This document shows, piece by piece, positions 3,067-58,500 of a stretch of DNA of 64,000 nt (position 1 is the first letter of the stretch; each line of letters starts with the position of its first letter). The stretch is from NCBI GenBank assembly GCA_032622095.1, contig CP136066.1, positions 10,005,784 to 10,069,783 on the forward strand, given 5' to 3'. The translations under genes were made by a program, and so were the position numbers. The notes under the pieces were generated by a model. It did no database searches, was not told the origin of the DNA, and saw nothing but the letters and a program-made list of their open reading frames with translations. Source of the DNA: Siphonodentalium dalli (taxonomy: Eukaryota; Mollusca; Scaphopoda; Gadilida; Siphonodentaliidae).

Positions 3067-3522
3067 TTAACCCTTTACCCAACAAAACAGCCAAAAACGC
3101 CCAAATAAAGCTTCAACAGCCTAAAATATCTTCCGTCTGTTTCAATAACAATATACAAATATGGATATCATTGGAACCGGTTCATTGACCACATTGTGAT
3201 GGTTACAGTTATGCCCTGTGCCAATGCATTCTCTTATATATGCGAGTCGACCATAGGTCGCCTCGCATATATAAGAGAATGCATTGGTCTAAAAAAAATC
3301 TTTTTTTAACACTTTTTACCATTTTTCTTACATTCTTTAACAATTTTATAATTTTTTCTTACATTTTTTAACAATATTTTTTCTACATTCTTTGACAATT
3401 TTATCATTTTTAATATGTGTTAAGCCAATGCATTCTCTTATATATGCGAGGCGACCTATGGTCGACTCGCATATATAAGAGAATGCATTGGCACAGGGCC
3501 GTTCTGTTGGGTAAAGGGTTAA
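3067..3522. mobile_element. piggyBac-type MITE with double-hairpin core (ACCCAACA type)
   Basis: TTAA then CCCTTTACCCAACA, and inverted at the right (TGTTGGGTAAAGGG then TTAA). CCC-ends with TTAA are typical of piggyBac. Inside are two perfect hairpins (3217-3286 and 3423-3493), each with 26-bp arms CCAATGCATTCTCTTATATA..., separated by a T-rich spacer. Confidence 0.9.
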
Positions 3523-3567
3523 ATGGCATCTCTATCTCTATGTATTGTAGTATCAGATTCATGGAGG

Positions 3568-3752
3568 CAATGACTCAGTGTGAGTGTTCATCGGACTCAG
3601 TATGAGTGTTCATCGGACTCAGTGTGAGTGTTCATCGGACTCAGTGTGAGTGTTCATCGGACTCAGTGCGAGTGTTCATCGGACTCAGTGTGCGTGTTCA
3701 TCGGACTCAGTATGAGTGTTCATCAGACTCAGTGTGAGTGTTCATCGCTTCA
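3568..3752 (+). repeat. 22-bp minisatellite, about 8 copies
   Basis: Unit GTGAGTGTTCATCGGACTCA with small variants, just right of the 3067-3522 MITE. Confidence 0.9.
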
Positions 3753-4082
3753 AATGAGCTTGCTGAATGTGAAAGTGAACAAATGTGAGCGTGAACAAAT
3801 TCTCATTTCTTATCGAAATGGCAATGTATCGATCGGAATGGCACATTATTATATGATCCGACTGTTATGCCATTCATTAAATCCATTATATAATAATGAT
3901 ATGATATACAACAGTCATTGTAGAACAGGAAATAGTGCCAGGTGTACCCAAATGTAATATTGTTGCGCAAACGTGCTTCAGAATCGGGGGACGAGGAACA
4001 AAGAATTGGGGGACGAGGAACAAAGAAGAATTGTGACTGATATTGATATAATTTGAAAAGTTATTTAATTAAATTTACACCA

Positions 4083-4415
4083 TTAACCCTTTACCCAACA
4101 AACCAGCCAAAACCGGCCAAATAAAGCTTCAACAGCCTAAAATATCTTCGGTCTGTCTCAATAGAACCATACAAATATGGATATCATTGGAACCGGCTCC
4201 TTGACCACATTGTGATAGTTACAGTTATGCCCTGTGCCAATGCATTCTCTTATATATGCGAGTCGACCATAGGTCGCCTCGCATATATAAGAGAATGCAT
4301 TGGCCTAAAAAAAAATTTTTTTAACACTTTTTACCAATTTTTCTTACATTCTTTAACAATTTTATAATTTTTAATGTGTTAAGCCAATGCATTCTCTTAT
4401 ATATGCGAGGCGACC
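4083..4415. mobile_element. piggyBac-type MITE, truncated right end (ACCCAACA type)
   Basis: Left end and first hairpin intact; the second hairpin stops at GCGAGGCGACC, and the right terminus is missing. Confidence 0.85.
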
Positions 4416-4646
4416 CTCAGTGGGAACCTATGGTAAGAAATCCTTCTATTATACAGGTATCAGACTCTGGAATATATATTGGCTCGACTAAGCCTTTCAC
4501 CATACATGTACATGTAGCTTTGATTATAAACACTGGAAGAAATGTGTAAATGATCACCTTCACAAAATTTTGAAAATACGTGATGAAAACCCCTTTGTAT
4601 ACCTTTAATACCAACTGAGGAAAATTAATTTTATACAACACAAATC

Positions 4647-5268
4647 CACCTGATACAGACCAATGTTACTCTGTAGTAATACAAAACTATTAGTTAAAAT
4701 TCCTCAGTGATAAAGGGTATGTGGCATGCCACGTCAGCCGTTGAGGCATGCCAATATCCCATAATATGTCAAATATAGCGAATTATCGAAATATGAAATA
4801 CCACGAAAAAGCGAAATAGGAAAATACAGCGAAATTGCGGAATAAAAAATGCATCGAAATGACGAAATAGCGCGAATTATGAAATAAGAAATTATTTTTA
4901 TTAACTAAATAACGGAGATATTTGAAGAAGTGTTTTTGACGAAATAACGGGCATATTTGGAGAAGTTTTTTTAAAGAGCGTACCCCAAACCTCCCCCAAG
5001 CCCACCCACCCAAGAGAAGAATTTTACTTATATTTCACCACAGTTGATCTATTGTGGTGTTGTTATTTCTAATACAAATCGCCGTTATTTCGTAAATATA
5101 CATTCTTTATAGAGTTATTACCCTGTGGCAATGTTACGATTTTAGCTTGTCAAAGAACATGTGGCATGCCTCAACGGCTGGCGTGGCATGCTACACACCC
5201 TATATCACTGAGGAATTTTAACTAATAGTTTTGTATTACTACAGAGTAACATTGGTCTGTATCAGGTG
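4647..5268. mobile_element. long-TIR element, 622 bp, 8-bp duplication
   Basis: About 105-bp inverted arms (CACCTGATACAGACCAATG inwards to the GGCATGCC words), flanked by exact CACAAATC (4639-4646, 5269-5276). Interior is made of CGAAATA-type short repeats. Confidence 0.9.
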
Positions 5269-5276
5269 CACAAATC

Positions 5277-5718
5277 AACTTAGGCTTCTGGCTGAGTTCT
5301 CTGTGCAGTGGAGTATGTGTTCATTTAATTGTGATAAGTTGGTGCCCGCCATACCATCCTCAATAGGCTGCTGAACCCATCGCAGAACCCAGAGACTTCA
5401 ATCAGTGTCTATATAACATCTTAACTTTTCCACATTTTACCCCCCCCCTCACTCAACCCTTTATGCACTAAACAAATGATGACCCCCCCCCCCCCCCTTC
5501 CCCTACTCAATTATAACCACCTGGGGTATATCCTCCCCATAATTTTTTGTTTTCTATTATCAATTGAAAGATTTAAATGAAGTAATTTTATACCAATATT
5601 TTTAAACCCAATTTCTGTCATATAATAGTCTCATACTATTTGAAATCACCACAAACTTTAATTGACCAATTGGCCACAGTGGAATTAGTTCAATACTCTT
5701 GTATCACCGGGAGCTTCC
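5277..5718. other. no gene seen
   Basis: AT-rich filler with a C homopolymer at 5483-5498. Confidence 0.6.
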
Positions 5719-6098
5719 TTAACCCTTTACCCAACAAACCGGCCAAATAAAGCTTCAACCGCCTAAAATATCTTCGGTCTGTCTCAATAGAACCATACAA
5801 ATATGGATATCATTGGAACCGGCTCATTGACCACATTGTGATGGTTACAGTTATGCCCTGTGCCAATGCATTCTCTTATATATGCGAGTCGACCATAGGT
5901 CGCCTCGCATATATAAGAGAATGCATTGGCCTAAAAAAAAACTTTTTTTACCATTTTTTCTTACATTCTTTAACAATTTTATAATTTTTAATGTGTTAAG
6001 CCAATGCATTCTCTTATATATGCGAGGCGACCTATGGTCGACTCGCATATATAAGAGAATGCATTGGCACAGGGCCGTTCTGTTGGGTAAAGGGTTAA
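5719..6098. mobile_element. piggyBac-type MITE (ACCCAACA type)
   Basis: Complete copy with TTAA at both ends and both hairpins. Confidence 0.9.
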
Positions 6099-6284
6099 GG
6101 ACCACAATGGAAATACGTCCCTCAGCATTTATCCTCCTATTTTCAATTAGTCTGCCCATCAACTCTCCTCTCTAATATCACTATCTTTACAGCCTGTCAT
6201 AAGCCAATTCATATACCTTCTCATTCAAATTTTCAGCTCTGTCAACTTTATTTATCACTTTTATTAAATGTATTTATCTGTACA

Positions 6285-6335
6285 TGTACAATGCTGATTG
6301 AATTTATCTAAATAAAAATCAATCAATCAGTACTG
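6285..6335 (+). repeat. retroelement-tail-like sequence
   Basis: GATTGAATTTATCTAAATAA followed by AATCAATCAATCAG, resembling 3' ends of non-LTR elements in molluscs. Weak. Confidence 0.35.
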
Positions 6336-6689
6336 GTGCCTACATGTACAGACACATGTATGCTCTAACTAATCGACCCCATAAATGAGGTTGTACAAAG
6401 TTGACTAGTCGGTACCTGTAGCCAAGAATTATATACATGTAGCTACAAAAATATTGGAGAGTACCATATAAGCTTTTTCGCATTCTACTAAACTGGAAGT
6501 ATTTAATCATGTGATTTCGATAAACAAGGGTTCTTCAAAACCAAAGTCTTGTTGAAACAATGAAACTGTGAGTCCCGAATGTCAATTTTACGGTCATGGA
6601 ACTTGGAACACCTGGTGACCCAGTTATCTCATGATTGGTGCACGACTTATGTGCTACATTTTTAACAAACTGAATATGTTGAGTTTATA

Positions 6690-7085: not shown

Positions 7086-7123
7086 TGTTAAATCAGTGGC
7101 AAGTGTTTGATCAACGTGCCATG

Positions 7124-19413: not shown

Positions 19414-19419
19414 TTACAG

Positions 19420-19520: not shown

Positions 19521-22500
19521 GTAAAAATATATTATCAAACCAACCAAGTAATACCCTATTTATTAATTAGATTTCCTCTTAGTAACTGACAACTCTTTCA
19601 GATGAGTGTCATCACAAAAATCTATATCTACAGATTATTTAGCAGTGAAGTAGATTTATGGCATGTCGTAAAACCATATTACTCGGATTTGTTATGTGGT
19701 AAAATGATATTACTCAGATTGGTGAATTGAAGCAATATTCACAGAGTTTATTTCATAGTGGATGTCAATCAAGCATGAATTTAATGTGTCTGACATTTGC
19801 AGAATGAGTTCCCCAGAGGGGGAATTTAGTGATGCTATCCTGCACAGTGGGCTAACATCACCAAATTCACCATCTGGGGACCTCATTCTGCTTAGGCCTC
19901 ATCTTCTGGGAAGTATCTATAGTCTCAACTTGTTTTTAGTTACCTTTTCCCTTCTCTTCAGTTTCTATATACCATAATTTGCAGAAGATTAATTGCATAA
20001 TCGAGGTGACTAATGGGTAAATATCACATCAACTTCAACTGGGGAACTTCAATCTGATCATAGGTCTCCCATAGCAGTTGAGGTCTAAGCAGAATGAGGT
20101 TCCCAGCCGCTGAATTTGGTGGTGCTAGCCTGCTATGCGGGATAGTGTCACTAAATTCACCCTCTGGGGACCTCATTCTGCAAATGTCGGATACATTAAA
20201 TACAGGCTTGATTTCAGTGCTCTTTGGTATGCTTTTGCAGCCCTGTAATTAATTTCGGCTATCAGCTGAGCTGAGGCCAAAGAAAACAATATATGTGGTT
20301 TGGGTTTTCCTACCAACCCTATTGTAAACCCCTACCCTAAAGTTTTTTCATAGTTCTCAAGAAATTCTATTTAATTTTTTCTCAAAATATTTCACAAAAC
20401 ACAAAAAACACATTTAAGTATCTCAGAATAGGTTGATTTCTAAGTAAAAGTTGTGTAATATTAAAATTTATACAAAAATAATCAAAAGTAGTTTTATGTA
20501 AATCTTGCCGAGTACAATACGCACATGAAAAGTCATAAGAATATGTCAAAATAAACAAAATAATTAACAAAATAAAATTTCAAGCCTACCTACCGACACT
20601 AATTTATTTCGGCTTGTAACCCAAACCAGATATTAAATTTTCTTTGGCCTGAGGCAAATGCCTAGATGAAAAGAAATTTTGTCTGCTATTTTTTAGCCAG
20701 GGAAAATTGCCGATGTTTTGTGCAAAATTGAAACAAATTCCTGAAGATATCACCTTAATGTCGCACTGTGGAAGTCTGAAGACAGCAAAAATTCATTGTT
20801 AAATGCCGAGGACTACTGAGATAACTACACAAGGATTATCTAGACAATCATTAATGTTAAACCAGACTTCACCAAAATTTGCTCATGTCTGTGAGGGGCT
20901 CCGTAAGGGTAGTTTAACCCTTCCATGACTGGAGCTTCCTGAAATTTTGCGAAAACTCTGCCAAAGCATTCTCTTTTATATGCAAGTCTTCCATAGGGAG
21001 CCTTGTATACTGTATTTTAGAGAATACATTGGCCTAACAATATTTACCTTGCCCTTGTATGCCAATGCAATCTTATACATGTATAGGAAACTCACATATA
21101 TCAGAGAATGCTCTGGCACAGGATCTTTAATGCTGCACCAGCGCAGCTCCCGTCATGAAAGAGTTAAGGCATGAGAAAAAAATTTGCATAAAAGATACGC
21201 AAATAAAAAAAATTGAGATACGTATAAGAGAATGCACTGGCACAGGATCTTTAATGCTGCACCAGCACAGCTCTCGTCATGAAAGAATTAAGGCATGAGA
21301 AAAAAAAGGGTTAATACTCTGAATCCAAAGTGCTTTACTTGACAGTTCCACTTATCTTCTTCAGGTGCTGGTTGAATTGAGAACTTGTGATATGCTGACA
21401 GATGAGGAGGCTGTTCTTATATTGGAGTCCGTTGTTAATATTTATCTCTCCATTCCAATAACACATCCATTGAAAAGGCTTCTTGCAAGGTTAGTCGTTA
21501 TATGGGTCCCTAGACTGTCCTAGTCCCAGACTCTCTTAATGTTTAACCCTTTGAGTGCCAGGTCCGTTTTTGTATCGACCCATATACCCTGTGCCAATGC
21601 ATTCTCTTATATATAAGAGAATGCATTGGCCTAACAATTTTTCATCATTTGTTATTATTTTTAAACAAATTTTTTACAATTTTAATAATTTTTAAAAATC
21701 TAAAAAAAAAAAAAAAAAAAAAAAGTTTTAGGGCCGATTTTACAGACCGTAAATTATTTATGTTTTTATTTACTTTTTCCCTTCTGTTCAGGTTCTATAT
21801 CCCCTAATTTGCAAAAGATAAAATGCATATTCGAGGTGACTAATGGGTGAACATCACCAACTTCAACTGGGGAACTTTAATCTGATCCTAGGTCTCCCAT
21901 AGCAGTGCAGGATAGCATCACTAAATTCACCCCCTGGGAACCTCATTCTGCAAATGTCAGACACTATAAATTCAGGCTTGCATATGGATCCCAAGACTGT
22001 CCTAAATCCCGGACTCTCTTAATACTTATCTGTCCATTCCAGTAAGTTAAACACATCCATCATATGGGTCCCGAGACTCATTTTATCCTGAACTCTGTTG
22101 TTGATATATATCTTTGCATTTTGATATCACACCCATTAAATGATTTACTGAAACCTTGTCAATCCTGGATATAGTGTTTCTGACATTTGCAGAATGATGT
22201 CCCCAGAGGGTGAATTTAGTGACACCAAATTCACCCTCTGGGAACCTCATTCTGCTTAGGTAGCAGCACACGATTTCACGGGTTGTACTGGGTCTGAAAA
22301 ATAGAAAAATAAGTATCTGGGGGGGGGGGGGGGGGGGGGCATAACAGCCAGTGTAGCCTGTGTTAAATGTGTCATTACTGGTTTGAAGGTTTAATTATTT
22401 TACAAAACGGGGAAAGTTCTCAAAAAAGTGGAAAATTTGGGTACGCAACAGGATTTTCGTATTCAGTGAAGGCCAACTCTGTGTTATTGGTTACAGGAAA

Positions 22501-25500: not shown

Positions 25501-28500
25501 AATTTGAGATAAACGGAAGACGTTTGTAATATAAATCCTGTTATGTTTTCAGTGCATTCCAGAACTTTCCAGTTGAGAGGAGACCTGAGACAAAGTCTGC
25601 CATCACAAATCAGCTCAACGATCATATCAAAGCTTTACTCACCTCTCAGCCATGGAATTCAGGGTCAAAGGTCACTCCAGCTGACCTCAGACGAACCATT
25701 GATATGATCAGCGCTTTGATGGAAAACTTTCCTCTTGGTGAGATACATACAGTAACGCTGATACAGTAACGCCCTAAGTAATCAACTCCTTAACCACAGC
25801 AGAATTATGGGTAACTTTTCAGGATTTAGTCGGAAATATGTCTTGTTGCCATTCATCGGGAAGCTCTCAGTGAGACCTTTCCGATGAATGGCAACAAGCC
25901 ATATTTCCGACTAAATCCTGAAAAGTTACCCATAATTCTGCTGTGGTTAAGGAGTCGATGACTTAGGGCATTACTGTATAGTAAATTGCATCTTGCAAGT
26001 TTTAATCTTACAAGGGAATAACCATTTAAAGCCCAAATGGCGATGTGTGCTCCAAAATACACCTACTGTATACACCCGACAGTAAGCCCATCCTCGAAGA
26101 TAAGCCCAGTTTGGGTTTTTACCCTAAATAATACTTGTGGTGGTCATAGATAAGCCCACTCCCATTTTTGAGCATTTGGAAGGTGAATACAATCACGATT
26201 TTCTATCCTGTAGAATATGAGAAGATACTCACAGCGTCAAGCACATTTGTGATTTTATTATTTTTGCCAGTTGTTTTTCTTAAAATATATAGATGTATAA
26301 TAGTATGCACCTGTGTTAATATTCAGACTTGAGCTTATAATTTAAAAAAATAGTAAAATCTTGATCTTATTGTCTGAACATCCCTGCATGACTGAACTTA
26401 AAGCCACATGGCGGTTTCCGCTCCAAAATACAAATAATATTATTTGCTTTTGAATTTTTCCCAGTATCGAAATAGGTCGATAAATATCTTCACTACCTTT
26501 TACGAGCATTCTGTAACCCAAATTGATGCATCGAAGTCATGAAAAATGCAATTATGAACAAGGTGTTTGGGTCCCAAACAAAAAACAACCAGTTGCACGA
26601 CATGGAACAGAAAAGAGCGTTCCGTGCTGTTCTATTCCTTATATGGTAGCAATAAAGAGCGTTTGTCTCACTTCGGGTGAAAAGTTGAAAACGGCTGGAA
26701 AATGGCTATGACTTTGGCAAGTGTTTTTCAAAGCATATGAAGCCGGCATATCAATATTTCGTGTATTTATCGACCTATCGTATCCGTCCCTCGAAATTGC
26801 GTAGACAAAATTTGGAGGGTCGAATGAGCCATGTCCGTTTAATAATTTGTCATTAGAAAAATGTGGACAACGATTTGAATAACCCTGTCGGCTGCTTCAT
26901 GTTGAATGTATCTTATAATGTTATTACATGAATGAATTTAATAACTTGTCATTAGAAAAATGTCAGACTTTCATTTTTAGAAAATGTAGGCACACATAGT
27001 CTCGCTCGCTGGGTTTTGGGCCCAGGCGCGCAGTTTCTATCAAGATAAAATAAACGGCGGATTGCCGGAAACACATTCATAAATGCCGTGTAAATTGAAT
27101 TACCGGTAGTTACATGTAACTCACGATCGATGTCCAGTGAATCTCTTTGATGGTTTAACACTGCTTAATCCACTATCCATAAGCACAAGTGAATGTCACA
27201 CACTATGTTTTATATTGTACATGCTCCTATATTAATTGTAATTCATAATTATTAATAAAGAATCAATTTAATACTCCGATTCCATGCTGACAGAATAATA
27301 TCAACATCTCCCGGCCACGTGGTCTCGCTTTGATCATAAGCCATACATATAAATCATTCAAATGTATTTTTAGCTTAAACGAATCATCCAGACAGATAGT
27401 GCATTCGACACCGTGTGACCTCAAATAATTTACTGGTGTCGGTGTTCAAACATCGGGCGGGTTGATTGACACCGCACTGTGAATGGAAAGTTGTGGAATT
27501 GGTAACTAGGTCGCGGCACCTTTGATCTCGCGACACATCATACAGGCATTCTCGCAACGCGGTAATAAAATGGAAAATGGGACACATTATTAACTAATCT
27601 CGTCTGGGTAGACACTGAAAATAGCGTTATCAGGTTCGGCCAACTTCGCTCTCTGTATTTGACCTAGGTGCGCAATCGATCGCTCGCTGGTTTTCAATTT
27701 CAGGCGCGCGATGGTGCGCAAGAGCGATCGCGTGCCTCAAAAATGAAAGTCTGAAATGTGGACAACGATTTGAATAACCCTGTCGGCTGCTTCATGTTGA
27801 ATGTATCTTATAATGTGATTACATGAATTTCTTTTTCATATATTTCTCCCTCCAAATCTAGTATTTTCTGGAACATGACAAATTCTGTGACAGACTGGTT
27901 CTTACTGCAGTCTGCTAATATTTTTCTCACCAATTTCTTTCAGGGGAAGAATGCTTAGAAGATGTGATCATTGAATGTAAGTAGGCGAAAGTAGTCTGAA
28001 ATAAGAACTGATCATATGTACACCTTTGGCTACAACAATCCACATCTTTACAAATTGATGCAGATCATGATATATTTTATATGATGCGATGCTCATCATG
28101 ATACATAATCTTTATGTATGTAGGACTACAGGATTCAATCTGCCCCCGTAACTATCACAATGTGGTCAAGGAGCCGGTTCCAATGATATCCATATTTGTA
28201 TGGTTCTATTGAGACAGACCGAAGATATTTTAGGCTGTTGAAGCTTCATTTGGCCGTTTTGTTGGGTAAAGGGTTAATTTTCTTGTTGTAAAATCACATG
28301 CATAACAGTTATGCCCTGTGCCAATGCATTCTCTTATATATGCGAGTCGACCATAGGATGATAACTAGTTGGGGATCACCAGCTATGGATTCACTGGGGA
28401 ATTCTTTCCTCTATTCGTTAACTCTTTCTCGCCGAGTTAAATTTACCTAAATTGCCAGAGAATTTATGAGAAAACTGATTTTATTGTGGAATAGTATGAT

Positions 28501-31500: not shown

Positions 31501-34500
31501 TGGGGACCTCATTCTGCAAATGACAGACACCCTATTTCAAGACTTGTTTCTGTCTGTCCTTTCCACAACATCGTCATGATAAGCTCCAACAGACATTATC
31601 CACATTAGATTTGCGACTTAATTCTCAAGCAACAAGCATGTGGCCAAATTAGGTTCGTGGCTTAATCTCAAGAACAAAATTATTTATGCTACCACAACGC
31701 TACCACGGTATCTCCCTTAGTACGTTTTGTCTCATTATGTTTCAGGGATCATACCGCTCCAGTAGAACAGAATGAGATAATGCATCATTGTTTGTCCGAC
31801 GTGCAGACGGCGAATAAATTACTCCAGAAATGCTGCAATGCTCTGAAAGAAAATATCCATGGTAACCAGAAGTCCCTCGACTATGTCACGCAATCCTTCT
31901 CAAGGTCATTCGCCCTCATTCAGAAACAAGGTAAGATTTTATACAGTAATGCCCTAATTAATCGACTCCCTAACGACAGAAGAATTATGGGTAACTTTTC
32001 AGGATTTAGTCGGAAATATGGCTCTCCCCGAGAGCTTTCCGATGAATGGCAACAAGCCATATTTCCGACTAAATCTTGAAAAGTTACCCATAATTCTGCT
32101 GTTGTTAGGGAGTCGATTAATTAGGGCATTACTGTAGCTTACATTTCCTTTGTCAGCCGTACAATGATCTTACAAAATTAACCTTAATTTTGGGTATCTC
32201 AGGTCTTTATTAACCTTAATTTTGGGTATCTCAGGTCTTTATTAACCTTAATTTTGGGTATCTCAGGTCTTTGGTATTTAAAGATACGGATGTGATGGAT
32301 ATTGCTGTTAAATAAGTCACATTGGTTAAAACTCCCATAAACAGAAAGAATATTAAAATATAGACAGATTTTGTTCTTATATCATATCAATCATAAATAT
32401 CACATAAATAGCATGTTATTCTCAAGATCATTGCATTGTTAGTAAATAAAAACCATATTATGACACAGTACAGTGTGTAAAGTGTGTTGGATACCCAAAA
32501 CACTCAACACCGGGGAGACCCCACCAGGGGAACTTTGGTTAAAATTGACACCATATTGTTTACCAATATAGCGCTCACTAATCCTCGCCACTCAAGATTT
32601 TGGTGTTTAATGGGTCACCGTGGATCACTCTCCCAGAAGATAATCATCATGGTGTTGAGTGTTTTACTTACCCCACACTCTTTACGTGATGTATATAAAC
32701 AAATGCTTCGTTCACACAAAGAGTGTTTTGTGGGTAATATCACATTCATATTATCATACTATTAGAATATTCTTCAGGAAATTCATAATTTGGTAACTTT
32801 GATATCTAAATTATAACATACAACCATATGTGCCTTTAAGTGATAATCTTGGTTAAAAACACATTGATTCTGTTGACAAACCTTTCCCTTCCACAATCCA
32901 CACATTCATAGTTCAGATTAATTTAAAAATATATATATTCATTGTTTGTGAGTCTAAAATGGTCCAAAATTGTTCATATCATTTGAAACCCTATTTAATG
33001 GATTGACCACAGTTATATGATAATGTCATAGCAGGGCCCTGCAAACCGGGTATTTTCAATTTCAAATCGAATCTCGAATCGAATCAGCCAAATGATTCCA
33101 AATCGAATCGAATCATTGCATCAGCCGTAATAATAGTGAAGATGAAGATAATACATGACTCAGAGGCCGTACCAATATTAATTTGTTCAATTTGTAACAA
33201 CGATAAATGATTGTCAGTGTACAATATAGATATCATCTGTAAATAAATCAATGTATGTCTAACCAATTGCATTTTTTGTGGCCATCTCTGTTATACAGTA
33301 ACGAAACATTATCAGAAGTAATATTGAAGCCAGAAAGCAATCGCATTCACAAGTTTGATATATGTGACCCGCCATATCAAATCCAGTCGTAAGTCGGGAT
33401 TTTTTTTACCCTGTGCCAATGCATTCTCTTATATATGCGAGTCGACCATAGGTCGCTCGCATATATAAGAGAATGCATTGGCCTAACAATTTTTTATCAT
33501 TTGTTTTAAATAAATGTTTCTTACAATTGTTAGGACATAAAATAAAAAACATCCATTACCCTGCAGGGAGCCCCACACATATATAGAAGCATATAGAAGA
33601 GTGTCGTCTGCTCGTGTTTGTCTGGGGCTCTGTATGGGTGAAATTATAAAATTGTTAAAGAATACAAGAAAAAATTATTAAAATTGTAAAAAATTGTTAG
33701 GCCAATGCATTCTCTTATATATGCGAGGCGACCTATGGTCAACTCGCATATATAAGAGAATGCATTGGCACAGGGTAAAAAAATCCCGACTTACGACTGG
33801 ATTAGATATGGCGGGTCACATATATGAAATGTTGCTAGATCAGTTGCATAAGTCTTACAATGCTTTGGTGGTCTATGGTATAGCTCAGTCGACAGCAATG
33901 TTATTTATATGCATTGGTTTCATAATATATCTTCAAGAAAAAGCAATGTGGTCCGTTGAAGTAATAAGAATGCAACTGGTGGCTATGATTCAATACAATT
34001 TGAATCAGGACAGCTGATTTCGAATCGAATCAGATGAAAGATTCTGAATCGCATCGAATCAAATCGATTCACAGGGTCCTATGTCTTAGCAAAAAAGATC
34101 ATTATTTTTAATATAAATATACAAGATTGTGATTGTTTTTCATTGAACCACCATAATTTTTTGTTTCATTTAACTCTTCCATGACTGGAGCTTCCTGAAA
34201 TTTTGCGAAAACCCTGTGCCAATGCACTCTCTTATATATGCTAGTCTCCCATAGGGATCCTTGCATATATAACAGAATACATTGGCCTAACAAAATTTAC
34301 CTTGACCTGGTAAGCCAGTACATTCTCTTATATATGTGAGCCTCCCTATGGGAGACTTTGCATATATAAGAGAATGCACTGGCACAGGATCTTTAATGCT
34401 GCACCAGCATAGCTCCCGCCATTAAAGGGTTAACATGCTCTCCTGTTTACAGATAATTTCTTGCTGGATTGTAAGGTTGCCATGGGAATACAACTTGTTT

Positions 34501-40500: not shown

Positions 40501-43500
40501 CGGTAACTCGTAATGGCATAATTCTCCATTTTATGACTCCAGCCATAAATTATTTTATATTAAATAATTGAATGTTACTTTTACGATAGCCTGTTAACCG
40601 GAACTTTTTCAGTAGACATCGTCGACTCGAATTAGTTATTTTATAATATAATATTCATATTAGATCGCTATTGTCACCGGGAATTTATTGAAATTGGGGT
40701 ACAGTACCCCTTTAACACGATATAAATATATTACATAAACAGTTTGGGCTCAACATGTCGCGTCCAAATCCGATCAACATCTTTATACAGCATATGTTAT
40801 CTGGGAAATGGAATATGGTTGACCATTTAGCTTTCATGACAACTCAATTGATCCGATGGACAGGCCCAAGTTGGGATACTATACATAGTTCCTGTAATCT
40901 CGTTTGCGTATGCGCCATTCCCAAGTCACTATGCACAATTTTGATATCGCGCGTGCCTGCTGTGCGCGACAGAATGAAGCGTACATGCGCAGGAGAGTGT
41001 CCGTTTGCAATGACTCGAATCAGACTCCATTGAATCCAAAGTTCCAAACTGCTTACTTTCACGAACTTCACGCATATTTCCATATATTAAACTGTTTAAA
41101 ACTGTGATTAAATACTGTTCACATCATGTTATAAAATTAAGTTTCTCCTTCGTAATCTGAGTTATCTCACTGAAGTTATAAAATCATCAGACAGTTGCCT
41201 CCACTTTTGCTTGTAGGCCTACTTCCCACTGACCGGTACCACCAATGATCTACTAAAGTGTTTGAAAAAGATTTGATTCGAGATTCGATTCGATTTCGAA
41301 TCATTATCATTCGATGTTGAAATTGCCGATTCGTCGGGCCCTACTCATGCGAGTATCCATGCCATTTACTCACTCAAGAAATGCACACCCAAAGTATAAT
41401 TCATTTATTGTGTGTGTATACACGGTCTCCCATTGTGTGTGTATACACGGTCTCCCATTGTGTGTGTATACACGGTCTCCCATTGTGTGTGTATACACGG
41501 TCTCCCATTGTGTGTGTATACACGGTCTCCCATTGTGTGTGTATACACGGTCTCCCATTGTGTGTGTATACACGGTCTCCCATTGTGTGTGTATACATGG
41601 TCTCACATTGTGTGTGTATACACGGTCTCCCATTGTGTGTGTATACACGGTCTCCCATTGTGTGTGTATACACGGTCTCCCATTGTGTGTGTATACACGG
41701 TCTCCCATTGTGTGTGTATACACGGTCTCCCATTGTGTGTGTATACACGGTCTCCCATTGCGTTTGATAGGATTATCATTTGGAAACCTCGGGCTTAAAG
41801 GGGTACTGTATGCCATTTTCAATAAATTCACGGTGATAACAACGATCTAATATCAATAATATATAGAAAACTAAGTAATTTGAGTCGAAGATGTATTCTG
41901 TAAACGTTCAGGTTAATAGGTCATCTTAAAATTAAAGTTAATAATTTGATGTAAATTTAATTTATGTGGTCTGTTGAATTAATGAGAATGCAATTGGTGC
42001 CAATGATTCAATACAATTCGAATCGGGACAGCTGATATCGAATTGAATCAAATTGAATCAGATGAAAGATTCCGAATCGCATCAAATCAAATTGATTTGC
42101 AGGACCCTATATAAATGTTGATGGTGATCAGTCAATTAAAATGGAAAACCTTGTCAGTTTGTGTGACCTTGACTGTCATTTGCAGAATGAGGTCCCCAGA
42201 GGGTGAATTTAGTGACGCTATCCTGCATAGTGGGCTAGCGTCACTAAATTCACCCTCTGGGGACCTCATTCTGCTAAGGCCCTCAACTGCTATGGCAGAC
42301 CTAGGTTCAGATTGAACTTCCCCAGTTGAAGTTGGTGATGTTCACCCATTGGGCACCTCAATTATGAATTTTAACTTCTGCAAATTAGGGGATATAGAAA
42401 CTTCCTAGAATGGAAATGTAACTAAATACAATGTTAATTTGATACTATAGATACTTCCCAGAAGATGAGGCCTAAGCAGAATGAGGTCTCCAGAGGATGA
42501 ATTTGGTGATGCTAGCCCGCTATGCGGGATAGCATCAGTAAATTCACCCTCTGGGGACCTCATTCTGCAAATGACAGACACGCTATTTGCAGGCATGCTA
42601 ATGCCTTGATTAGTGGGGACATTTTGCAGGGAAACCCCTTTAATTTCATTTGATTTTCCAGTCTACTGCAACTAAAAATACATGGTAATTTAAAAAATGC
42701 CATTTTATATAAATGGATATAATTTACTATTTTCCTTATGGCATACAACCCTATACTATGCAAACATAAGGATGGCAATGTCATTAAGTGAAGACTTTAA
42801 CATTAAAGATTAAGAGAGATGTATTTTACTGAATTGTGATTGGCTCATTTCTTGCAGATTTCTCAGTTAGTGTTCGCTGATGACGTAAGATCTATCACTA
42901 TGCCCGACTGGCTGACGACGTGCGGTGTTGATCGGCTGAAGGGAGATAACCCTGTCTCCTATACATCAGTCTGCCACAGCATCCTCGCTGTATTAGAACT
43001 GTCTGAGCTTTCAGTCGATGTCAGATGTCATGCGACTGGCGATGATAAAATTAGCAGCAAGGGAGCCAGTCTAGTAGACTGCACTGAAGGCACCAGCCTT
43101 ATAACTCATAAATTATTACCCGAATTTCTATCTATATCTAGAAAGTAAGTCACCTTCGTAACTCATTGAGTGGTAAAACTAAGTTAAATTCCATCGTTTC
43201 ATGCTTCGTGTAAAATGTTCATGATTTTTGTGTCTTTGAATGGAGATAATATTAACCCTTTCAGTGCCAAGTCAGATTTTTGTATCAACCCATATTTCCT
43301 TGATCATTTTTCAAATTTATTGATTATAATAATGTGATACATTAGAGCTCTTCTTAGAGCTCTTTCCATCAATGTATCACATTATTATAATCAATAAATT
43401 TGAAAAATGATCAAGGAAATATGGGTTGATACAAAAATCGGTATTGGCACTGAAAGGGTTTTAAAACAAACTCAGGGACCAGCCGAGAGGGTGACTTGGG

Positions 43501-46500: not shown

Positions 46501-49500
46501 AACAGAGAGAAGCAATGTTTTAGTATAGAACAATTCGAAACTAGGTTATTGTCTATTTTTTGTATTCTCGTTTGTGGTCCGGGTCACAATTAGTATCAAA
46601 CTGTAATTGTCAAGACTATAAAATTCAAACCTTGATATTGTTATATCCTTGTTATCAAGAGCTACAGTAATGCCCTAAATAATTGACTCGCTAACCACAG
46701 CATAATTATGGGTAATTTTTCAGGGTTTAGTCAGAAATATGGCTTGTTACCACCATTCATCGGAAAGCTCTCAGTGGAAAGCTCTCACTGAGAGCTTTCT
46801 GATGAATGGCAACAAGCCATATTTCCGACTAAATCCTGAAAAGTTACCCATAATTCTGCTGTGGTTAAGGAGCCGATTATTTATGGCATTACTGTATTTT
46901 GCTCCAGCACTCTTAATACCTTGAATCTGTTATTTGAACATTTTTCAGATTGTTAGACTGAATGCAAGACAAATATTTGAAAATGTAATAAAGATCCACG
47001 TACTAGCTTCTAAATGTGGTGAGTTGCCAACTTATTAAACAGACATATACCCTTTAAGCATTAAGTTATGCCTCATGCAATAGGAATGGCTAGCCAGCCA
47101 CCTCATATTCGCACTGTCCAGAAAATACTTTTGGCCATTTACAAGCCTTGAAATAGAGTGTCTGTCATTTGCAGAATGTGGTCCCCAGAGGGTGAATTTA
47201 GGGAAGCTATCACACAGTGGGCTAGCATCAATAAATTCACCCTCTGGGGACCTCATTCTGCTTAAACCTCATCTTCTGGAAAGTATCTATAGTCTCAAAT
47301 TAATATTGTTTTGGTTACTTTTTCCCTTCTGTTCAGTTTCTATATCCCCTAATATGCAGAAGATAAAATGCATAATTGAGTTGACTTTAATGTGTGAACA
47401 TCGCCAACTGGGGAACTTAATCTGATCCAAGATCTCCCATAGCAGTTGAGGCCTCAGCAGAATTAGGTTCGCGGAGGATGAATTTGGTGATGCTACGCCG
47501 CCATGCGGGGGTAGCTTCACTAAATTCACCCTCTAGGGACCTCATTCTGCAAATGACAGACACACTTTCAAGCTTGGTCATTTATTAATTTGTTTTCAGA
47601 AACTCGTTGAACCTGCTTATGGTACGGATTAATAAGTGCATGTCTCCTGCCCATCAGTTTTAGAGTTATTTTCTTTCAATATTTACTTTCATTCACACAG
47701 GGTTGTCAATGATAACTTTTTAAACACAAAAATAAATGATGGAACATTTTATCTAGTTTTTTTTTTATCATTTCAAGATTCAAAAGATGACGATTTCATA
47801 AGACGAATGCTCAGAAGTCTGATGGAACTGAGCTGGACATCGAAGGTGAAATACGGTCCGCTGTGCAGCATGGTGTCTCTCGTCGGAACTTCAGCCATAT
47901 TGGATATGAATCCTGGGATAGCCGGCGATATAATCAGTCGGCTGTCGGAGCAGTCGCTGGCTCAGAATGTAAGATCATATTGATTGTTATTAGCTCATCA
48001 CCATCTCCAATTGACCAAGTCTTCTCGGTCCACAACAGCTTGGTATATCAGTTGGGTTGATGGTTTTTTGGATGAGTCCCATCCCGTTACTCTTCTATAA
48101 CAGACTTTCATTGGATCCCGGGCATACATAAGAACCCATGAATGTGATTAATCATCTGACGCGATTAATCTGCCTTCAAAATGATATATCATTTATCGTG
48201 ATACAAAAAGGTAAAGTGATGATATGATCGTTTATTATTTTGTTAACAACACATTTTCTGAAGAGCCACAAATCAAAATTCTCTGGAAAACAATGTTTTG
48301 TTTACTTATAAATATCGTTGATTGGACATTCAACAGACCTCTGATATACTCATGGTTTACATCATCATGCATGGGAAAGGCTGCCCTCTATGTTCATATA
48401 CACAAAGCTCCATTTGTACTAATCCGAAGACAAACAACAAGATAACTCCCACCCACGATTATGGGCATAAAGTCTGACATAGAAGAGTAACTGGACGGGA
48501 CTCGGTCCAAAACAGCATCAACCCAACTGATATACCAAGCTGTTACAGCATCAACCCAACCGATATACCAAGCTGTTACAGCATCAACCCAACTGATATA
48601 CCAAGCTGTTACAGCATCAACCCGACAGATATCCCAAGCTGTTACAGCATCAACCCAACCGATATACCAAGCTGTTACAGCATCAACCCGACAGATATCC
48701 CAAGCTGTTACAGCATCAACCCAACCGATATACCAAGCTGTTACAGCATCAACCCGACAGATATCCCAAGCTGTTACAGCATCAACCCAACCGATATACC
48801 AAGCTGTTACAGAATCAACCCAACCGATATACCAAGCTGTTACAGCATCAACCCAACCGATATACCAAGCTGTTACAGCATCAACCTAACTGATATACCA
48901 AGCTGTTACAGCATCATCCCAACCGATATACCAAGCTGTTACAGCATCAACCCAACCGATATACCAAGCTGTTACAGCATCAACCCGACAGATATACCAA
49001 GCTGTTACAGCATCAACCCAACCGATATACCAAGCTGTTACAGAATCAACCCAACCGATATACCAAGCTGTTACAGCATCAACCCAACCGATATACCAAG
49101 CTGTTACAGCATCAACCTAACTGATATACCAAGCTGTTACAGCATCATCCCAACCGATATACCAAGCTGTTACAGCATCAACCCAACCGATATACCAAGC
49201 TGTTACAGCATCAACCCGACAGATATCCCAAGCTGTTACAGCATCAACCCAACAGATATCCCAAGCTGTTACAGCATCAACCCAACAGATATCCCAAGCT
49301 GTTACAGCATCAACCCAACCGATATCCCAAGCCGTTACAGCATCAACCCAACCGATATCCCAAGCTGTTACAGCATCAACCCAACAGATATCCCAAGCTG
49401 TTACAGCATCAACCCAACAGATATCCCAAGCCGTTACAGCATCAACCCAACCGATATCCCAAGCTGTTACAGCATCAACCCAACAGATATCCCAAGCTGT

Positions 49501-52500
49501 TACAGCATCAACCCAACCGATATACCAAGCTGTTACAGCATCAACCCAACAGATATCCCAAGCTGTTACAGCATCAACCCAACCGATATACCAAGCTGTT
49601 ACAGCATCAACCCAACCGATATACCAAGCTGTTACAGCATCAACCCAACAGATATCCCAAGCCGTTACAGCATCAACCCAACCGATATACCAAGCTGTTA
49701 CAGCAACAACCCAACCGATATACCAAGCTGTTACAGCATCATCCCAACTGATATACCAAGCTGTTACAGCATCAACCCAACCGATATCCCAAGCTGTTAC
49801 AGCATCAACCCAACCGATATCCCAAGCTGTTACAGCATCAACCCATCCGATATACCAAGCTGTTACAGCATCAACCCAACCGATATACCAAGCTGTTACA
49901 GCATCAACCCAACCGATATCCCAAGCTGTTACAGCATCAACCCGACAGATATCCCAAGCTGTTACAGCATCAACCTAACCGATATCCCAAGCTGTTACAG
50001 CATCAACCCAACCGATATCCCAAGCTGTTACAGCATCAACCCAACCGATATACCAAGCTGTTACAGCATCAACCCAACCAATATCCCAAGCTGTTACAAC
50101 ATCAACCCGACAGATATCCCAAGCTGTTACAGCATCAACCCGACAGATATCCCAAGCTGTTACAGCATCAACCTAACCGATATCCCAAGCTGTTACAGCA
50201 TCAACCCGACAGATATCCCAAGCTGTTACAGCATAAACCTAACCGATATCCCAAGCTGTTACAGCATCAACCCGACAGATATCCCAAGCTGTTACAGCAT
50301 CAACCTAACCGATATCCCAAGCTGTTACAGCATCAACCCGACAGATATCCCAAGCTGTTACAGCATCAACCCGACAGATATACCAAGCTGTTACAGCATC
50401 AACCCAACCGATATCCCAAGCTGTTACAGCATCATCCCAACCGATATCCCAAGCTGTTACAGCATCATCCCAACCAATATACCAAGCTGTTACAGCATCA
50501 TCCCGACCGATATCCCAAGCTGTTACAGCATCAACCCAACAGATATCCCAAGCTGTTACAGCATCATCCCGACCGATATCCCAAGCTGTTACAGCATCAT
50601 CCCAACCGATATACCAAGCTGTTGCAGCATCATCCCAACCCATATCCCAAGCTGTTACAGCATCAACCCGACCGATATCCCAAGCTGTTACAGCATCATC
50701 CCAACCCATATCCCAAGCTGTTACAGCATCATCCCAACCCATATCCCAAGCTGTTACAGCATCATCCCAACCGATATCCCAAGCTGTTACAGCATCAACC
50801 CGACCGATATCCCAAGCTGTTACAGCATCATCCCAAGCCATATCCCAAGCTGTTACAGCATCATCCCAACCCATATCCCAAGCTGTTACAGCATCATCCC
50901 AACCCATATCCCAAGCTGTTACAGCATCATCCCAAACGATATCCCAAGCTGTTACAGCATCATCCCAAACGATATCCCAAGCTGTTACAGCGTCATCCCA
51001 AACGATATCCCAAGCTGTTACAGCGTCATCCCAACCCATATCCCAAGCTGTTACAGCATCATCCCTCCTGATATCCCAAGCTGTTACAGCATCATCCCAA
51101 ACGATATCCCAAGCTGTTACAGCATCATCCCAAACGATATCCCAAGCTGTTACAGCGTCATCCCAACCCATATCCCAAGCTGTTACAGCATCATCACAAA
51201 CGATATCCCAAGCTGTTACTGCATCATCCCAACTGATATCCCAAGCTGTTACAGCGTCATCCCAACCCATATCCCAAGCTGTTACAGCATCATCACAAAC
51301 GATATCCCAAGCTGTTACAGCATCATCCCAACTGATATCCCAAGCTGTTACAGCATCATCCCTCCTGATATCCCAAGCTGTTACAATATCATCCCTCCTG
51401 ATATCCCAAGCTGTTGTGTATCGTGCAGACTTGGTCTACACCGATAACTATCCAAGGAGTCCTCAATGGTTCAGTTGTTATGGTGCATAGTGCATCATCA
51501 CATTCATAAACCTGATTCAGTTATCAATAGTGCATCATCACATTCATGAACCTGATTCAGTTATCAATAGAGCATTATCACATTCATGAACCTGATTCAG
51601 TATCAATAGAGCATTATCACATTCATGAACCTGATTCAGTTATCAATAGAGCATTATCACATTCATGAACCTGATTCAGTTATTAATTGTGCATCATCAC
51701 ATTCATGAACCTGATTCAGTTATCAATAGAGCATTATCACATTCATGAACCTGATTCAGTTATTAATAGTGCATCATCACATTCATGAACCTGATTCAGT
51801 TATCAATAGAGCATTATCACATTCATGAACCTGATTCAGTTATCAATAGATGTAGTTTGCTGTTGCTAACGAGGCCAGGATAACCTGTTTCTATATGTGG
51901 TACTGAAATTAACCCTCTGTCTTTCTGTGCCGTTGTTTCTACATGTGGTACTGAAAATAACGCTCTGTCTTTCTGTGCCGTTTCTGTATGTGATACTGAA
52001 ATTAACCCTTTGAGTGCCAGGTCGATTTTTGTATCAACCCATATACCCTGTGCCAATGCATTCTCTTATATATGCGAGTCGACCATAGGTCGCCTCGCAT
52101 ATATAAGAGAATGCATTGGCCTAACAATTTTTTTTTATTTTTTTTTTACAATTTTTTTACAATTTTAATAATTTATTCTTATATTCTTTAACAGACTTAT
52201 TTTGTAGGTTTAGGGCCGATGAGATCGGCCCCTGGCACTCAAAGGGATAACTATCCTGAGTTTCAAGAGTAAGCCATTAGATTAATTATTTCAGGCAAGT
52301 GAGTTATATGAAAAGCTTTTCACTTTTCACTTAAAACAACATAATGACGAAAGGTCACAGTTATCAGATGTCACAGCCCAGACTCCACCTACCTGTCAAT
52401 CTACCCAGTTATCAGATGTTGCAGCCCAGGCACCGCCTACCTGCCATTCCGCCCCTGACTGGTATAGCTGTTGGCTCAATCCTGTACTAACAGCTCTGTG

Positions 52501-55500
52501 TAATGACAATAAACGACAGAGATTACTTGTCACTGAGGTATGTAGCTTAAAGTTTCATGAAGGTATATTAATTAATGGACATTCCAAGTTATTGTTACTG
52601 CGATATATTGCTAGGCATCTGTCTGTTGCAATTGTGGTCATTCCACTCTTCTCTGAATGACATTTTCTGAATATAATAAACTCGGTAAAATCTCCATTTT
52701 TTTTTTCCACTGATTATTATATGGATTGGACATGTTAAGTTTTATGCTCGAGATAATGGGGGGGGGGGGGGGGGGGGGGGGGGGGGTCATCACTCTTCTG
52801 TATTTGAGGGAAATTGGGAGTCTCACGGCAAATCCGTGAGACTTAACACCTCTGATATGAATATATTTGGATTCAAGATTATACCGCTATAGACATTTTT
52901 AGTTCACTAAATTTCATGATCCAACTTCGACTTTCGGTTTATTTTAGTTCATAATCTCGCCTCTCTTTCAGTATATTTTACCAAAGATTTTAAAAACTGG
53001 GGAAGACAAAGTGCAGTATACCATATCTAAACTATCCAATGGTGAGTTATATTTATAGTTAATTTTTTTTCTGTCCTACCTCCTCCCTCTTTATTCAGAA
53101 ATATCTGGGAAGCAGGTACGTATTTGGCTAAATTATTAATTGGGAGACCTGTTTTCTGCATAAATATTTTTGTTCAATTTCCTGTCATCAATTTAAAACT
53201 TATTCTATTTACGATTCCATTCTATAAACCAGAATACATTTTACATCAGCGGCCAGAGTTTCTGACAACATGCCTTGCATTGTTTACGTTATAGCTCTGA
53301 ATATGTCACCATCAAAACAATAAATAATGTCAGTGGTTCAAATTTGTATTATGTCAGTGTCTTTTTTTAACCCTTCCATAGGGAGCTTTGCATATATAAG
53401 AGACTGCACTGGCTTACAAGGCAAAGGCAAATATTGTATTCTCTTATATATGCGAGGCAGGGAACAAGCTTGAGGTTAAAAACAGAGAGAAGTGACTTCT
53501 CCCTCTGGAGATTTTAGGGAGACTTCAGCCCAAAATAGGGAGAAGTGGGGGAGACTTAAGAAAAACTTATTAATTTTCAAATATCGCTTTATTTATGACA
53601 TCAATAAAAAGATAAAATAACAAGATAAAACGTGTTTAGCAGGAATAAAATACATAGTTTAGATAGATAACCTGACTCTGTATTTCTTCAATTTATAACT
53701 TTTATTTTAAAAATTAAAAATGTTGATATTAGGCCAAAAAAAAAAGGGTTTTGATTCTCGGGCATAGCCGCGTCTGGAAAAAAGGCCCGCGTTGAAGCAT
53801 TTTATTACGATTTTCAAATTGACCGATGCTGTCAAATGATAACACGAAAATAGGAAACTAGAAAACAGAAATTAGTTATGTTTCAAACATCGAATATGAT
53901 AGACATACAATGGTGCATGTGTTGGTATTCAAAAACAGACACTAGGCAACGATAACTACCAGGTATATTGTCACCACAAGCTGCCCAAACCCCAAGTTTA
54001 TTAAGTCTAATGTGTTCAAATATTTCGGTATTTTATCAATTCGAAAAGGTAAACGGTAAACAATTTTGAGATTTACAATTTCTGGAACGCAAACCGGAAA
54101 GAAATATGGTGAGTATTGGTGATGTGTATGCTGGTTTGAAGTTTTTATGGCTAGCATGTATTGAAGTACATAATACTTACTCAGATACGGCAGAATAAAT
54201 CATTCTAGACTTTCTATGAAGATCACTATATATATCTTTTCGTTTTGATTGTATTCACGTTCCGTATTTTTATTTGAGTAATTGAACCGGATATTTAGCT
54301 CTGTTTGTTGTTATTAAACATGCTTGTTACAAAACAATATTAGAAACACAAATATGCTCATCCCATTAAATGTGACAACAGGTGATAAAATGTTTGTAGA
54401 CTGGTCCATCTACAATGTTGAGAACGATCCTATTATGGTCATTCTTTATAGTGGAATACATTAGTTTATAAATTATATCAAAACAATGTTCTCCTTACAT
54501 TTTCTTAACCTGGGAAGGTATAATAACCCATGCTAACTATGGGCATTATCCCCATAACAAAAATAAAAAATAAAAATAAAACCCTCGCTCCCTCATCGAT
54601 TCTCAAAAAAATTTACCCGAGAATCAAAACACTTTTTTTTTTTGGCCTTATCTGAAGAAATTAATTGTTATTATAAATTTGAAATTTTTGGAAATATTTT
54701 GTGTAAAAATCATTTAAGCAAGACAATTAGCAAGTTACATTTTTAACTTAATTGGAAGTAGTATTGTAATTCAATTTTGTAGGATTATATCATTCCAGTA
54801 TTATTTCCTAGACTGGAAGATAGGTTTGTACAGTCTGAACAAGATGATAAAGTTTAATTTGGTCACTGCTGTAATGTGGGTATCCGCTAAAATAAACAAT
54901 AAGGACTAATCAAGGAGTTGTAAAAACTTTTAGTTTTATTTCGGCCATGGTTTAATTTCATTAAAGCAATAAACTTGACAAGTTGGATGCACCTGTTATG
55001 CGTGGGTGTGGCCATTTATTTACGGAAGCGGTATCTCCCAAAAGTGTGACGCGTTGCCGGTAAATCTCAGTTTGATCAAATTTAGTAGGCGACTTCTTTT
55101 TCGCCTCGCGGACATCCGAGGGCGAAGTCGCCGGGTCGAAGGCGAGAACTTCGATCCAGTCGCCTCCTAGCATGAAGCCTGATGCGAGGGTCTCCCTAAT
55201 CGATTATAAAAGATATTGCATTGGCACAGAGTTTTCGCAAAATTTTGGGAAGCTCTAGTCATGAAAGGGTTAACAGCAATTATTGCTCAATGTTAAAATG
55301 AAATTATATTTTTGAGTTACTTCAATCGGATATATTTTTGAATAAATAACTATTCAACCCCTTGTATCATGAAAACCTTTAGAAAGAAAAATTGTATTCT
55401 CAGGTGTATCAGAGAAGAAGCCCGGAAGTCTCGGAGCTTTGGTGACGTGTATGAGGAGAGCGAGGCTCATGGGAATGCTAAATAAAAACGTACTGACAGA

Positions 55501-58500
55501 CAATAACAAGAAGTGGCTCGGAGTCAACACCTCAGTTATCGAAAATGCTATTGCTAGTATGGATGAGCAGGTAGGTTTATCTGTCTATCTGACTATTTAA
55601 CCCTCTTTATACTTAACCCTTTCAGTGCCAGGCGCTGATCTCATTGGCCCTAATTTACTGTCTGTAAAATCGGCCCTAAAATTTTTTAAAAATTGTTGTT
55701 TATTTTTAGATTTTTATTTTTGGTTTAATTTGTTTTGGGTATGCTTAAGCATGCTCTAGCGAATTTAAAAACAAACTGGATAAAACCTTCGGGGCATGTT
55801 ATAACTCAAAAACTATCACCAAGTATTCATAGTAATAATTTTGATGCCCATGAAAAACTTGAGATTCCCTGACACTAAACCTACAAAATAAGTCTGTAAC
55901 AAATAATAACAAATAATAACAATAATGAAAAATTGTTAGGCCAATGCATTCTCTTATATATGCGAGGCGACCTATGGTAGACTCGCATATATAAGAGAAT
56001 GCTTTGGCACAGGGTATATGTGTTGATATAAAAATCGGACTTGGCACTGAAAGGGTTAATGAATTCTCCCACTCAGTATACATATGAATTGTTTATTATT
56101 CCACACCCATTGATGTGAGGCACATGTATTCAACGGAATCCCAGCCATTGAATACATTTTAGTGTATACCTCTAGTGGAATACAAGCCAGAACTATTGTC
56201 ATTGTCACCAAGAAATATGACATTGACAATCCGCTTCGGGTGATGCCCCAATCATTACTGGTTATTCATCAGATTTAAATCAAAATAAAGATAGCTATAG
56301 TATAAATGAAGGCGACAGTCATGGATTGAACGTATCTGATACAACGTTGTAGAATAAATACAGAACAACATCGTCATCTTGAATCTTTTATCAAACTCGG
56401 ACTGTGCATACAGTAATGCTCTAAATAATCGACTCCTTAACCACAGCAGAATTATGGGTAATTTTTCAGTATTTAGTCGGAAATATGGCTTGTTGCCTTC
56501 ATCTGAAAGCTCTCACTTTTTCAGGATTTAGTTGGAAATATGGTTTGTTGCCATTGTTTAAGGAGTCGATTAGTTAGAGCATTACTGTAGTTAAATTTCT
56601 CTCAAGCTGCGCTCTCATGAAATATATCCTTGCGCCATCCACAACTCATTTGATAAAAGATGCTCGATTAATATGTGTTGTGTTCTGTCTATTTATTCAC
56701 ATGGGAGATATTCAAGCAATTTAAGCAGACGACAAACAGGCCAAAAGCTAATACATGTGCTGAAGGATTCATTTTCATTTGTGGGAAATGTATAGATAAT
56801 AAGTTTAACAAAATGGTCGTTTTATGGTGATTTTATCTTCCAGGTGAGATTGGATGCATTCGCACTCCTCTGTGATAACGTGAAGACGACAGAATATCTC
56901 ACAGGATTTGAGTTTTATGGTGATTTTATCTTCCAGGTGAGATTGGATGCATTCGCACTCCTCTGTGATAACGTGAAGACGACAGAATATCTCACAGAAT
57001 TTGAGTTTAAACACTTAACACTGTTCATGGAAAATAATTTGAACAACCAATCAGCTGCCTTCCGACAACAACTCAATGCTTATCTCAAGAAAGTTAGTAT
57101 TTAAATTAATACTGCCTTCAGACAACAACTCATCGCTTATCTCAAGAAAGTAATTCAAATTAATCCTAAATATATCTATATAAGATTGTTTGACAGGTAA
57201 TAATTTTGAGGAAGGTTTTTTAATTCTGCTGACGTCTCGGATGTAGAATGATTATATAAAAGTAGATATAAATAACATCTTAAAGTATGTGTCATTAGGA
57301 TTTAAAATCAATTGTTAACCCTTTCATCAGGAGAGCTGCGCTGTTGCAGCATTAAAGATTCTGCGCCAGTGCATTCTCTTATATATACGAGTCTCCCATA
57401 GGGAACCTCGCATATATAAGAGAATGCACTGGGTTACAAGGTCAATGTAAATATTGTTAAGCCAATGTATTCTCTGAAGTATCCGAAGCTCTGAATGGGA
57501 AACACTCATATATAAGAGAATGCACTGGCACAGGGTTTTCACAAAATTTCAGGAAGCTCCAGTCAAGGGAATTAAGATTTTCTGCTAGGACCAATAAGAC
57601 TTAGTTTTTTTTTTAAATAACTGTGTTTAATAGCAAATATATTAATTGCGAGAAAAAAAGATTTCTTGTAGCTTTTTTATTGACAGCTAATATTATGCAA
57701 ATAATGTAAATGACTAATTAGATGTCTTCTGGTAACAGGTGATTGCTCATCTCAAGAAAGTAAGCATTATATCAATGCTGAGGAAAAATGTTATGTTTTG
57801 TTTTGTTTTTAAATGTATGATGAAGAGAGTGCTTTAGACATAAAATATCGCATGGACAAAGTTAACAACAGAAAGTAACGGATCAGTTTTTCTTATGCTT
57901 GGCACCTGGGTAGCATCGGCGAATGTGTTCACGTCTTGATAAATCAGAATTTCTGTATCTTTTAATGTACCTTTTGATGTCAGGTATTTAATGTTATAGA
58001 GTGATTCCGCTTCTAGCGATTGTGCGTGTGCGGGTGATTGTAACTCTAACGTCACAGGTCACATAATTCTACACGCTTGTTGTCCATAAGTGACTGACTT
58101 GTGCGAGTATGACTTTCTCTACTTGTAAACACTGGGTATAATTCTATTTTTGAAACATTTTGTTCTAACTCTATGATTTTGCATCGATGGAGTATTGATC
58201 AAAACCTCATTTAATAGTTCGACATGACCATTGCATCAGAAATTTGGTTGAATATGTTAAATATTTTACTCTTGGAATCCACAGAGTTTACGCTAAATTT
58301 ATCTATACTATTTATTATAAAACTGAACTATCGGAACTAGTGTCAGTCTCTGTTACAGTCTGAAATTTCGAAATAATCTTGTTTCAGGCATGATACTGAC
58401 CATAATCATCATAATGTGATTATTTTACTAGGACATGGGGTTGTGTGAGATGATAGACACGAAAGCACGCCTGCCCGATACCATGTCCACTTTACTGATA

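Follow-up and report, generated by a model that had tools for sequence, protein, structure and literature searches.

MITE families usually take their names from their tips, and the element that moves them is assumed to be their ancestor. The closest described counterparts of the elements analyzed here are the CMITEs of Acropora, small TTAA MITEs in which differing CC[C/T]T piggyBac tips enclose a single interior of 75 bp, whose conservation across families exceeds that of the tips themselves (Wang et al. 2010, PMC2872659). One CMITE joins the tips of one family to the interior of another, and one CMITE family is linked through its tips to a piggyBac element devoid of the interior; the question whether an internal palindrome contributes to multiplication was asked for CMITEs in 2010 and left open there (PMC2872659). 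In Drosophila mojavensis, one central region of Galileo is found with the TIRs of three subfamilies, for which exchange between copies has been proposed (Marzo et al. 2013, PMC3573991). Finally, for animal Pack-TIR elements, a mechanism has been proposed in which template switching (gap filling and FoSTeST) puts foreign sequence between TIRs and transposition multiplies the product (PMC8277862).

Here, we explored a 64-kb stretch of DNA (hereinafter, the window) and the genome assembly to which it belongs (2.23 Gb, nine contigs), in which four kinds of tips, A through D, surround one hairpin core. As in the CMITEs, different piggyBac-like tips enclose one conserved interior, the two interiors being compared by description. 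Unlike the CMITEs, which are about 100 bp long, all of the TTAA type and present in about 1,600 copies, the core reported here is a perfect hairpin, occurs also in a family that targets ATAT and is represented by more than 120,000 exact 33-mer copies. Galileo is one transposon of the P superfamily, with long repetitive TIRs, 170 copies and 7-bp target duplications, whereas the tips described below are unrelated to each other and use two target sites; the filler of Pack-TIR elements is host DNA, whereas here it is the interior of other MITEs. Thus, a common interior under differing ends is of a kind already known from corals and Drosophila, and the claim, made in a preliminary description of the window, that there was no earlier report of such a pattern has to be withdrawn in view of the CMITEs and Galileo. 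As far as we could find, what is new is the crossing of the core from TTAA to ATAT families, the presence of one tip on two interiors, and a scale that fixes the junctions beyond doubt; no paper describing a core that crosses between target-site systems was found in the open-access literature.

Tip types and the hairpin core in the window

The tips read ACCCAACA in type A, GAGTGCCAGG in B, CATGACTGGAGC in C and GTGACCCGCC in D, of which A, B and C are TTAA types and D is a non-TTAA type with the target ATAT. In extended form, the ends are TTAA-CCCTTTACCCAACA for A, TTAA-CCCTTT[C/G]AGTGCCAGG for B, TTAA-CCCTTTCATGACTGGAGC for C, with CATGACGGGAGCTGCGC at the opposite end, and, for D, GTGACCCGCCATATCAAATCCAGTCGTAAGTCGGG, which TTAA does not adjoin. 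In all types, the core starts with CCCTGTG and forms a stem with almost perfect pairing; the reference 74-bp unit, CCCTGTG plus the hairpin, at 3214-3287 (+), is identical to the consensus of A, B and D. Types A, C and D carry two inverted hairpins, as expected from the double-hairpin core of the preliminary description, but B has only one, at one end, and its opposite end bears a small palindrome of its own, GGGCCGATCTCATCGGCCC. The elements range from 230 to 675 bp (median 258-466 bp by type), lengths too short to accommodate a piggyBac transposase. These lengths, the inverted tips and the high copy number (exact tip copies numbering from hundreds to tens of thousands) are those of MITEs, and the tips of A, B and C all start with CCCTTT, in agreement with the CC[C/T] signature of piggyBac. 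Within the window, TTAACCCTT has 19 matches compared to 0.83 expected, a count reached in 0 of 100 shuffles, and the hairpin arm CCAATGCATTCTCTTATATA, at up to 3 mismatches, has 37 matches compared to 0.03 expected from shuffles. The common core under different ends is thereby confirmed. The previous description is also accurate with regard to the three TTAA tip types, the arm length of 26 bp and the position of the non-TTAA element, exactly 33364-33819.

Type A is represented by complete elements at 3067-3522 (+) and 5719-6098 (+), each with TTAA at both ends. In the former, the parts are arranged in the order TTAA-CCCTTTACCCAACA, a left arm of ~150 bp, hairpin 1, an AT-rich spacer, hairpin 2, a short right end, and TTAA. 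An additional A element at 4083-4416 (+) has a break within hairpin 2, and a left-arm fragment at 28130-28277 (-) is accompanied by a separate core fragment at 28304-28357 (+). Type B includes one complete element, at 55613-56059 (-), with a single hairpin (55941-56007) and TTAA on both sides, and three reduced ones: 21543-21755 (+), with the hairpin shortened at the left tip and the right tip gone; 29205-29659 (+), which has lost the left tip and retains the core and the right tip CAGACACTGAAAGAGTTAA; and 52002-52250 (+), with the core at the left end and the right tip CTGGCACTCAAAGGG followed by ATAA, a decayed TTAA. Among the C elements, that at 20914-21167 (+) is an older copy with the tip CATGACTGGAGC, followed by another C right-end copy up to about 21291; that at 34170-34433 (+) has two hairpins and a decayed left tip, TTAACTCTTCC; and that at 57315-57575 (+) has its ends in inverted order and a decayed right tip, AAGGGAATTAA. 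Two C fragments complete the set, one with decayed hairpins at 53367-53467 (+), the other a left end with half a hairpin at 55205-55273 (-). The type D element at 33364-33819 (+) has GTGACCCGCC tips, two hairpins and a central module, M, and is bounded by ATAT target-site duplications at 33360-33363 and 33820-33823. Thus, of the at least ten copies initially credited with TTAA ends, only 3067-3522, 5719-6098 and 55613-56059 are clean, with both exact ends of one type, the remainder including truncated or decayed elements.

At 43252-43464 (+), the B tip continues to CAACCCATAT and then into an unrelated stem. That this stem is unrelated was correctly recognized, although its arms are 90 bp long and 97% complementary, rather than 70 bp, and the element belongs to a core-less B family with 8,176 exact tip-stem junctions genome-wide. 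This core-less state, previously taken to result from the core being swapped out, may equally well be the one that preceded capture.

The window contains further large inverted repeats, with arms of about 107-141 bp, at 390-1119, 4647-5268, 19767-20213, 25761-25979 and 42170-42580, which apparently belong to other MITE families; some of these are targets of A elements. A search of the 64-kb window against Rfam yielded zero family matches.

Genome-wide copies, target sites and piggyBac relatives

Across the assembly, counted as exact patterns with reversed patterns as a control (0 throughout), the core 33-mer has 124,021 copies. The tips number 26,356 for A, 23,528 for B, 10,482 for D and 635 for the left end of C, and exact tip-core junctions number 17,886 for A, 12,117 for B and 10,973 for D. 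The C tip is joined to the A/B/D form of the hairpin at 288 exact junctions. Most of 20 sampled core copies without an exact tip are A, B, C or D elements with a mutated tip; in two duplicated-locus pairs, L074/L076 and L080/L085, the core has no known tip beside it. As expected, there were zero matches to the core among bacterial and archaeal contigs. The copy-level comparisons reported below draw on about 340 kb of DNA, a sample biased to A and C baits plus one end of one contig.

Among copies recovered with non-TTAA baits, TTAA lies outside the tip in 19 of 22 A and 14 of 20 B elements; C copies were mostly fetched with a TTAA bait, so that the TTAA target of this type rests on the window copies. 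Outside the D tip, ATAT is found in 24 of 31 cases, and 10 of the 12 D elements fetched whole have ATAT flanks on both sides, at odds with the TTAA signature of piggyBac. Empty relatives, recognized by joined flanks in a comparison that covered A and D (no clean B case), contain a single TTAA for A (L009/L010 vs L045/L063) and a single ATAT for D (L095 vs L064 and L055), as is to be expected if these motifs are duplicated targets. The empty relative of L031 reads TCAA where the A element has TTAA, and the A case L043 is ambiguous, its relatives being without TTAA. Because of the ATAT flanks and the empty relatives with one ATAT, D is not piggyBac by target; no paper describing an ATAT-target MITE was found in the open-access literature. 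In L093, a D element sits in the ATAT of a C-type hairpin, so that the core itself serves as a target for D.

The genome contains more than 100 matches to piggyBac transposases, many with long open frames. In 42 sampled piggyBac loci, the readable 5′ tips fall into at least nine types, each of which combines a CCCTTT-like hexamer with a distinctive stretch of 10-20 bases; in most of them, a short palindrome lies within about 35 bp. Given this diversity, distinct bases after CCCTTT are normal for distinct piggyBac families and, alone, are no sign of exchange. One complete piggyBac (C6:111403397-111407660; 4.26 kb, with a 671-aa frame) has TTAACACGTTGAGTGCC at both ends, tips close to those of B, and lacks the core. 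Together with the TTAA target and the CCC tips, this autonomous relative supports the assignment of the B MITEs to the piggyBac type, and their mobilization would be due to a transposase of this kind. Likewise, one piggyBac 5′ tip resembles that of C (permutation P about 0.004-0.015) and supports a piggyBac affiliation of the C MITEs. No autonomous partner of A was found among the 42 sampled loci (best tip match, P 0.16), no autonomous partner of D was found, and there is no hairpin core near piggyBac transposases in the stretches examined. Thus, the attribution to piggyBac is supported by autonomous relatives or their tips for B and C and by the TTAA target and the CCCTTT start of the tips for A, and it is not supported for the ATAT-targeting element at 33364. 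Most of the autonomous piggyBac tips (L003, L101, L104, L109, L114, L134, L136) are also followed, at a distance of about 12-18 bp, by a palindrome 16-26 bases in length; a similar palindrome is present at the B right end and, more weakly, at the C right end.

Conserved cores under unalignable tips

Over 74 positions, A, B and D have the same hairpin consensus (0 differences), whereas the tips of these types cannot be aligned; an interior more conserved than the tips is the hallmark of the CMITE-like pattern. The identical 74-mer, letter for letter, is present in 17 hairpins of A, 3 of B and 9 of D. Divergence from the own hairpin consensus is 1.1-1.6% in A, 0.8% in B and 1.3% in D, compared to 9% in C, and the C consensus differs from that of A/B/D at 5 (left) or 9 (right) of 79 columns. 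Hence, A, B and D have young hairpins and those of C form an older, diverged lineage, so that the earlier view of the same hairpin in all types is accurate for A, B and D but not for C. In a tree of 140 hairpins built from 79 columns, with low support and mostly unresolved forks, the C ends separate, and A, B and D intermix with 18 label changes; complete agreement between tip and core phylogenies was not obtained. The AT-rich spacer next to the hairpin is 72-82% identical among A, B and D over 49-67 columns, and because it is recognizably common to the three types, more than the hairpin was passed on. Furthermore, one B element (L033) contains the right spacer and the central module M of D, and B tips are found on two unrelated interiors, the hairpin core and the stem of the 43252-43464 type. 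Thus, tips and cores have been re-assorted, as the modular exchange postulated in the preliminary description implies, rather than tips having drifted from one ancestor.

Three double substitutions that preserve pairing (A-T/G-C, G-C/T-A and A-T/C-G) separate the hairpin lineages, which indicates that the source elements retained the palindrome even as its sequence changed. In individual copies of A, B and D, arm-to-arm compensation amounts to 0 double hits, so that copies decay neutrally after insertion, and homogenization between the two hairpins of one element does not reach significance (0 shared in A; 1 shared in D, P 0.18). The pairing-preserving changes leave room for a function of the palindrome, without proving one.

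Module M (ACCCTGCAGGGAGCCCCA...GTGTCGTCTGCTCATG...TGGGGCTCTGTATGGGT; 33540-33640) occurs in the middle of D elements, in the B element L033 and in other contexts (L074, L076). A variant of it lies within a family carrying CATTCTGCAAATGACAG (L031; window positions 47155-47566).

Origin of the tip-core combinations

We consider it fairly likely that these are chimeric MITEs, that is, a few chimeras made by repair, each amplified by a transposase recognizing its tips. Under this scenario, the palindromic module (CCCTGTG plus the hairpin with 26-bp arms) would have been first part of the old TTAA family C and would have subsequently come inside the ends of A and B (TTAA, piggyBac type) and of D (ATAT), each combination most likely arising once or a few times. 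The direction from C to A, B and D is suggested by the greater divergence of C in a low-support tree of 79 columns. When a break or an excision gap in a MITE was repaired, the interior of another MITE could have been copied into it, through template switching or ectopic conversion, with stalling at the palindromes perhaps aiding the formation of chimeras; hairpins may indeed provoke template switching. Each chimera would then have been cut and pasted to thousands of copies, in trans, via the transposase of its own tips. For animal TIR elements, template switching and then multiplication of the product have been put forward (PMC8277862). The sample of about 340 kb yielded neither a single-copy intermediate nor a donor locus, and there is no clear microhomology at the tip-core junctions.

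The most abundant internal sequence thus crosses families that differ in tips and even in target sites. Annotation based on internal sequence would merge families that are unrelated, and annotation based on tips would separate elements with a common core. Types A, B and D, which are young and have an identical core under unrelated tips, provide a natural experiment on whether a palindrome inside a MITE aids its multiplication.

A different view of the same re-assortment, which we regard as possible albeit unlikely, is that the core is a selfish functional module that hops between unrelated transposon families across target-site systems, its pairing maintained by selection; it may act, for example, as a transposition enhancer or as a hot spot of replication or repair, while tips and spacers change. 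Somewhat less plausible still, the core could have been a hairpin transposon in its own right, which inserted into A, B and D and was then amplified within them. Such an insertion would account for the TA that precedes the core in D, in B and in one other context, for the bounds CCCTGTG...CACAGGG, and for the D-type core that, in L080/L085 (one duplicated locus), lies between sequences without a known tip. The core, however, has no flanking duplicated target site, the junctions in A differ (TTATG on the left vs GAACGG on the right), B contains only half of the structure, and no core-free A or D was recognized among the copies examined.

Descent of all types from one ancestral core-bearing MITE, the tips of which diverged whereas a function in transposition preserved the core, is the reading nearest to that of the CMITE authors (PMC2872659) and, in our assessment, improbable here. 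The CCCTT retained by all TTAA types, the absence of differences in the hairpin consensus of A, B and D next to spacers that are only about 72-82% identical, the pairing-preserving double substitutions between lineages and the similar tip-to-core distance (about 40-45 bp in B, C and D) are all compatible with common ancestry, but in this genome the piggyBac elements matched by B tips are not those matched by C tips, and the unalignable tips and ATAT target of D, along with the B tips on two unrelated interiors, strongly disfavor it. The chance that the pattern reflects random similarity or an assembly artifact is negligible: duplicated copies, tandem and segmental, in the first megabase of contig C1 do inflate counts taken from there, but the shuffle controls, the zero matches to reversed patterns, the tens of thousands of copies and the spread of the listed C-type junctions over several contigs argue against such an origin.

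Two tandem structures were observed in this part of C1. The segment 735542-779582 (L011-L018) is a tandem duplication in which the unit measures about 14.6 kb and the same A element appears 4 times. The segment 794086-920823 is an array of tandem units, mostly about 11.2 kb long, each with one B-type core copy.
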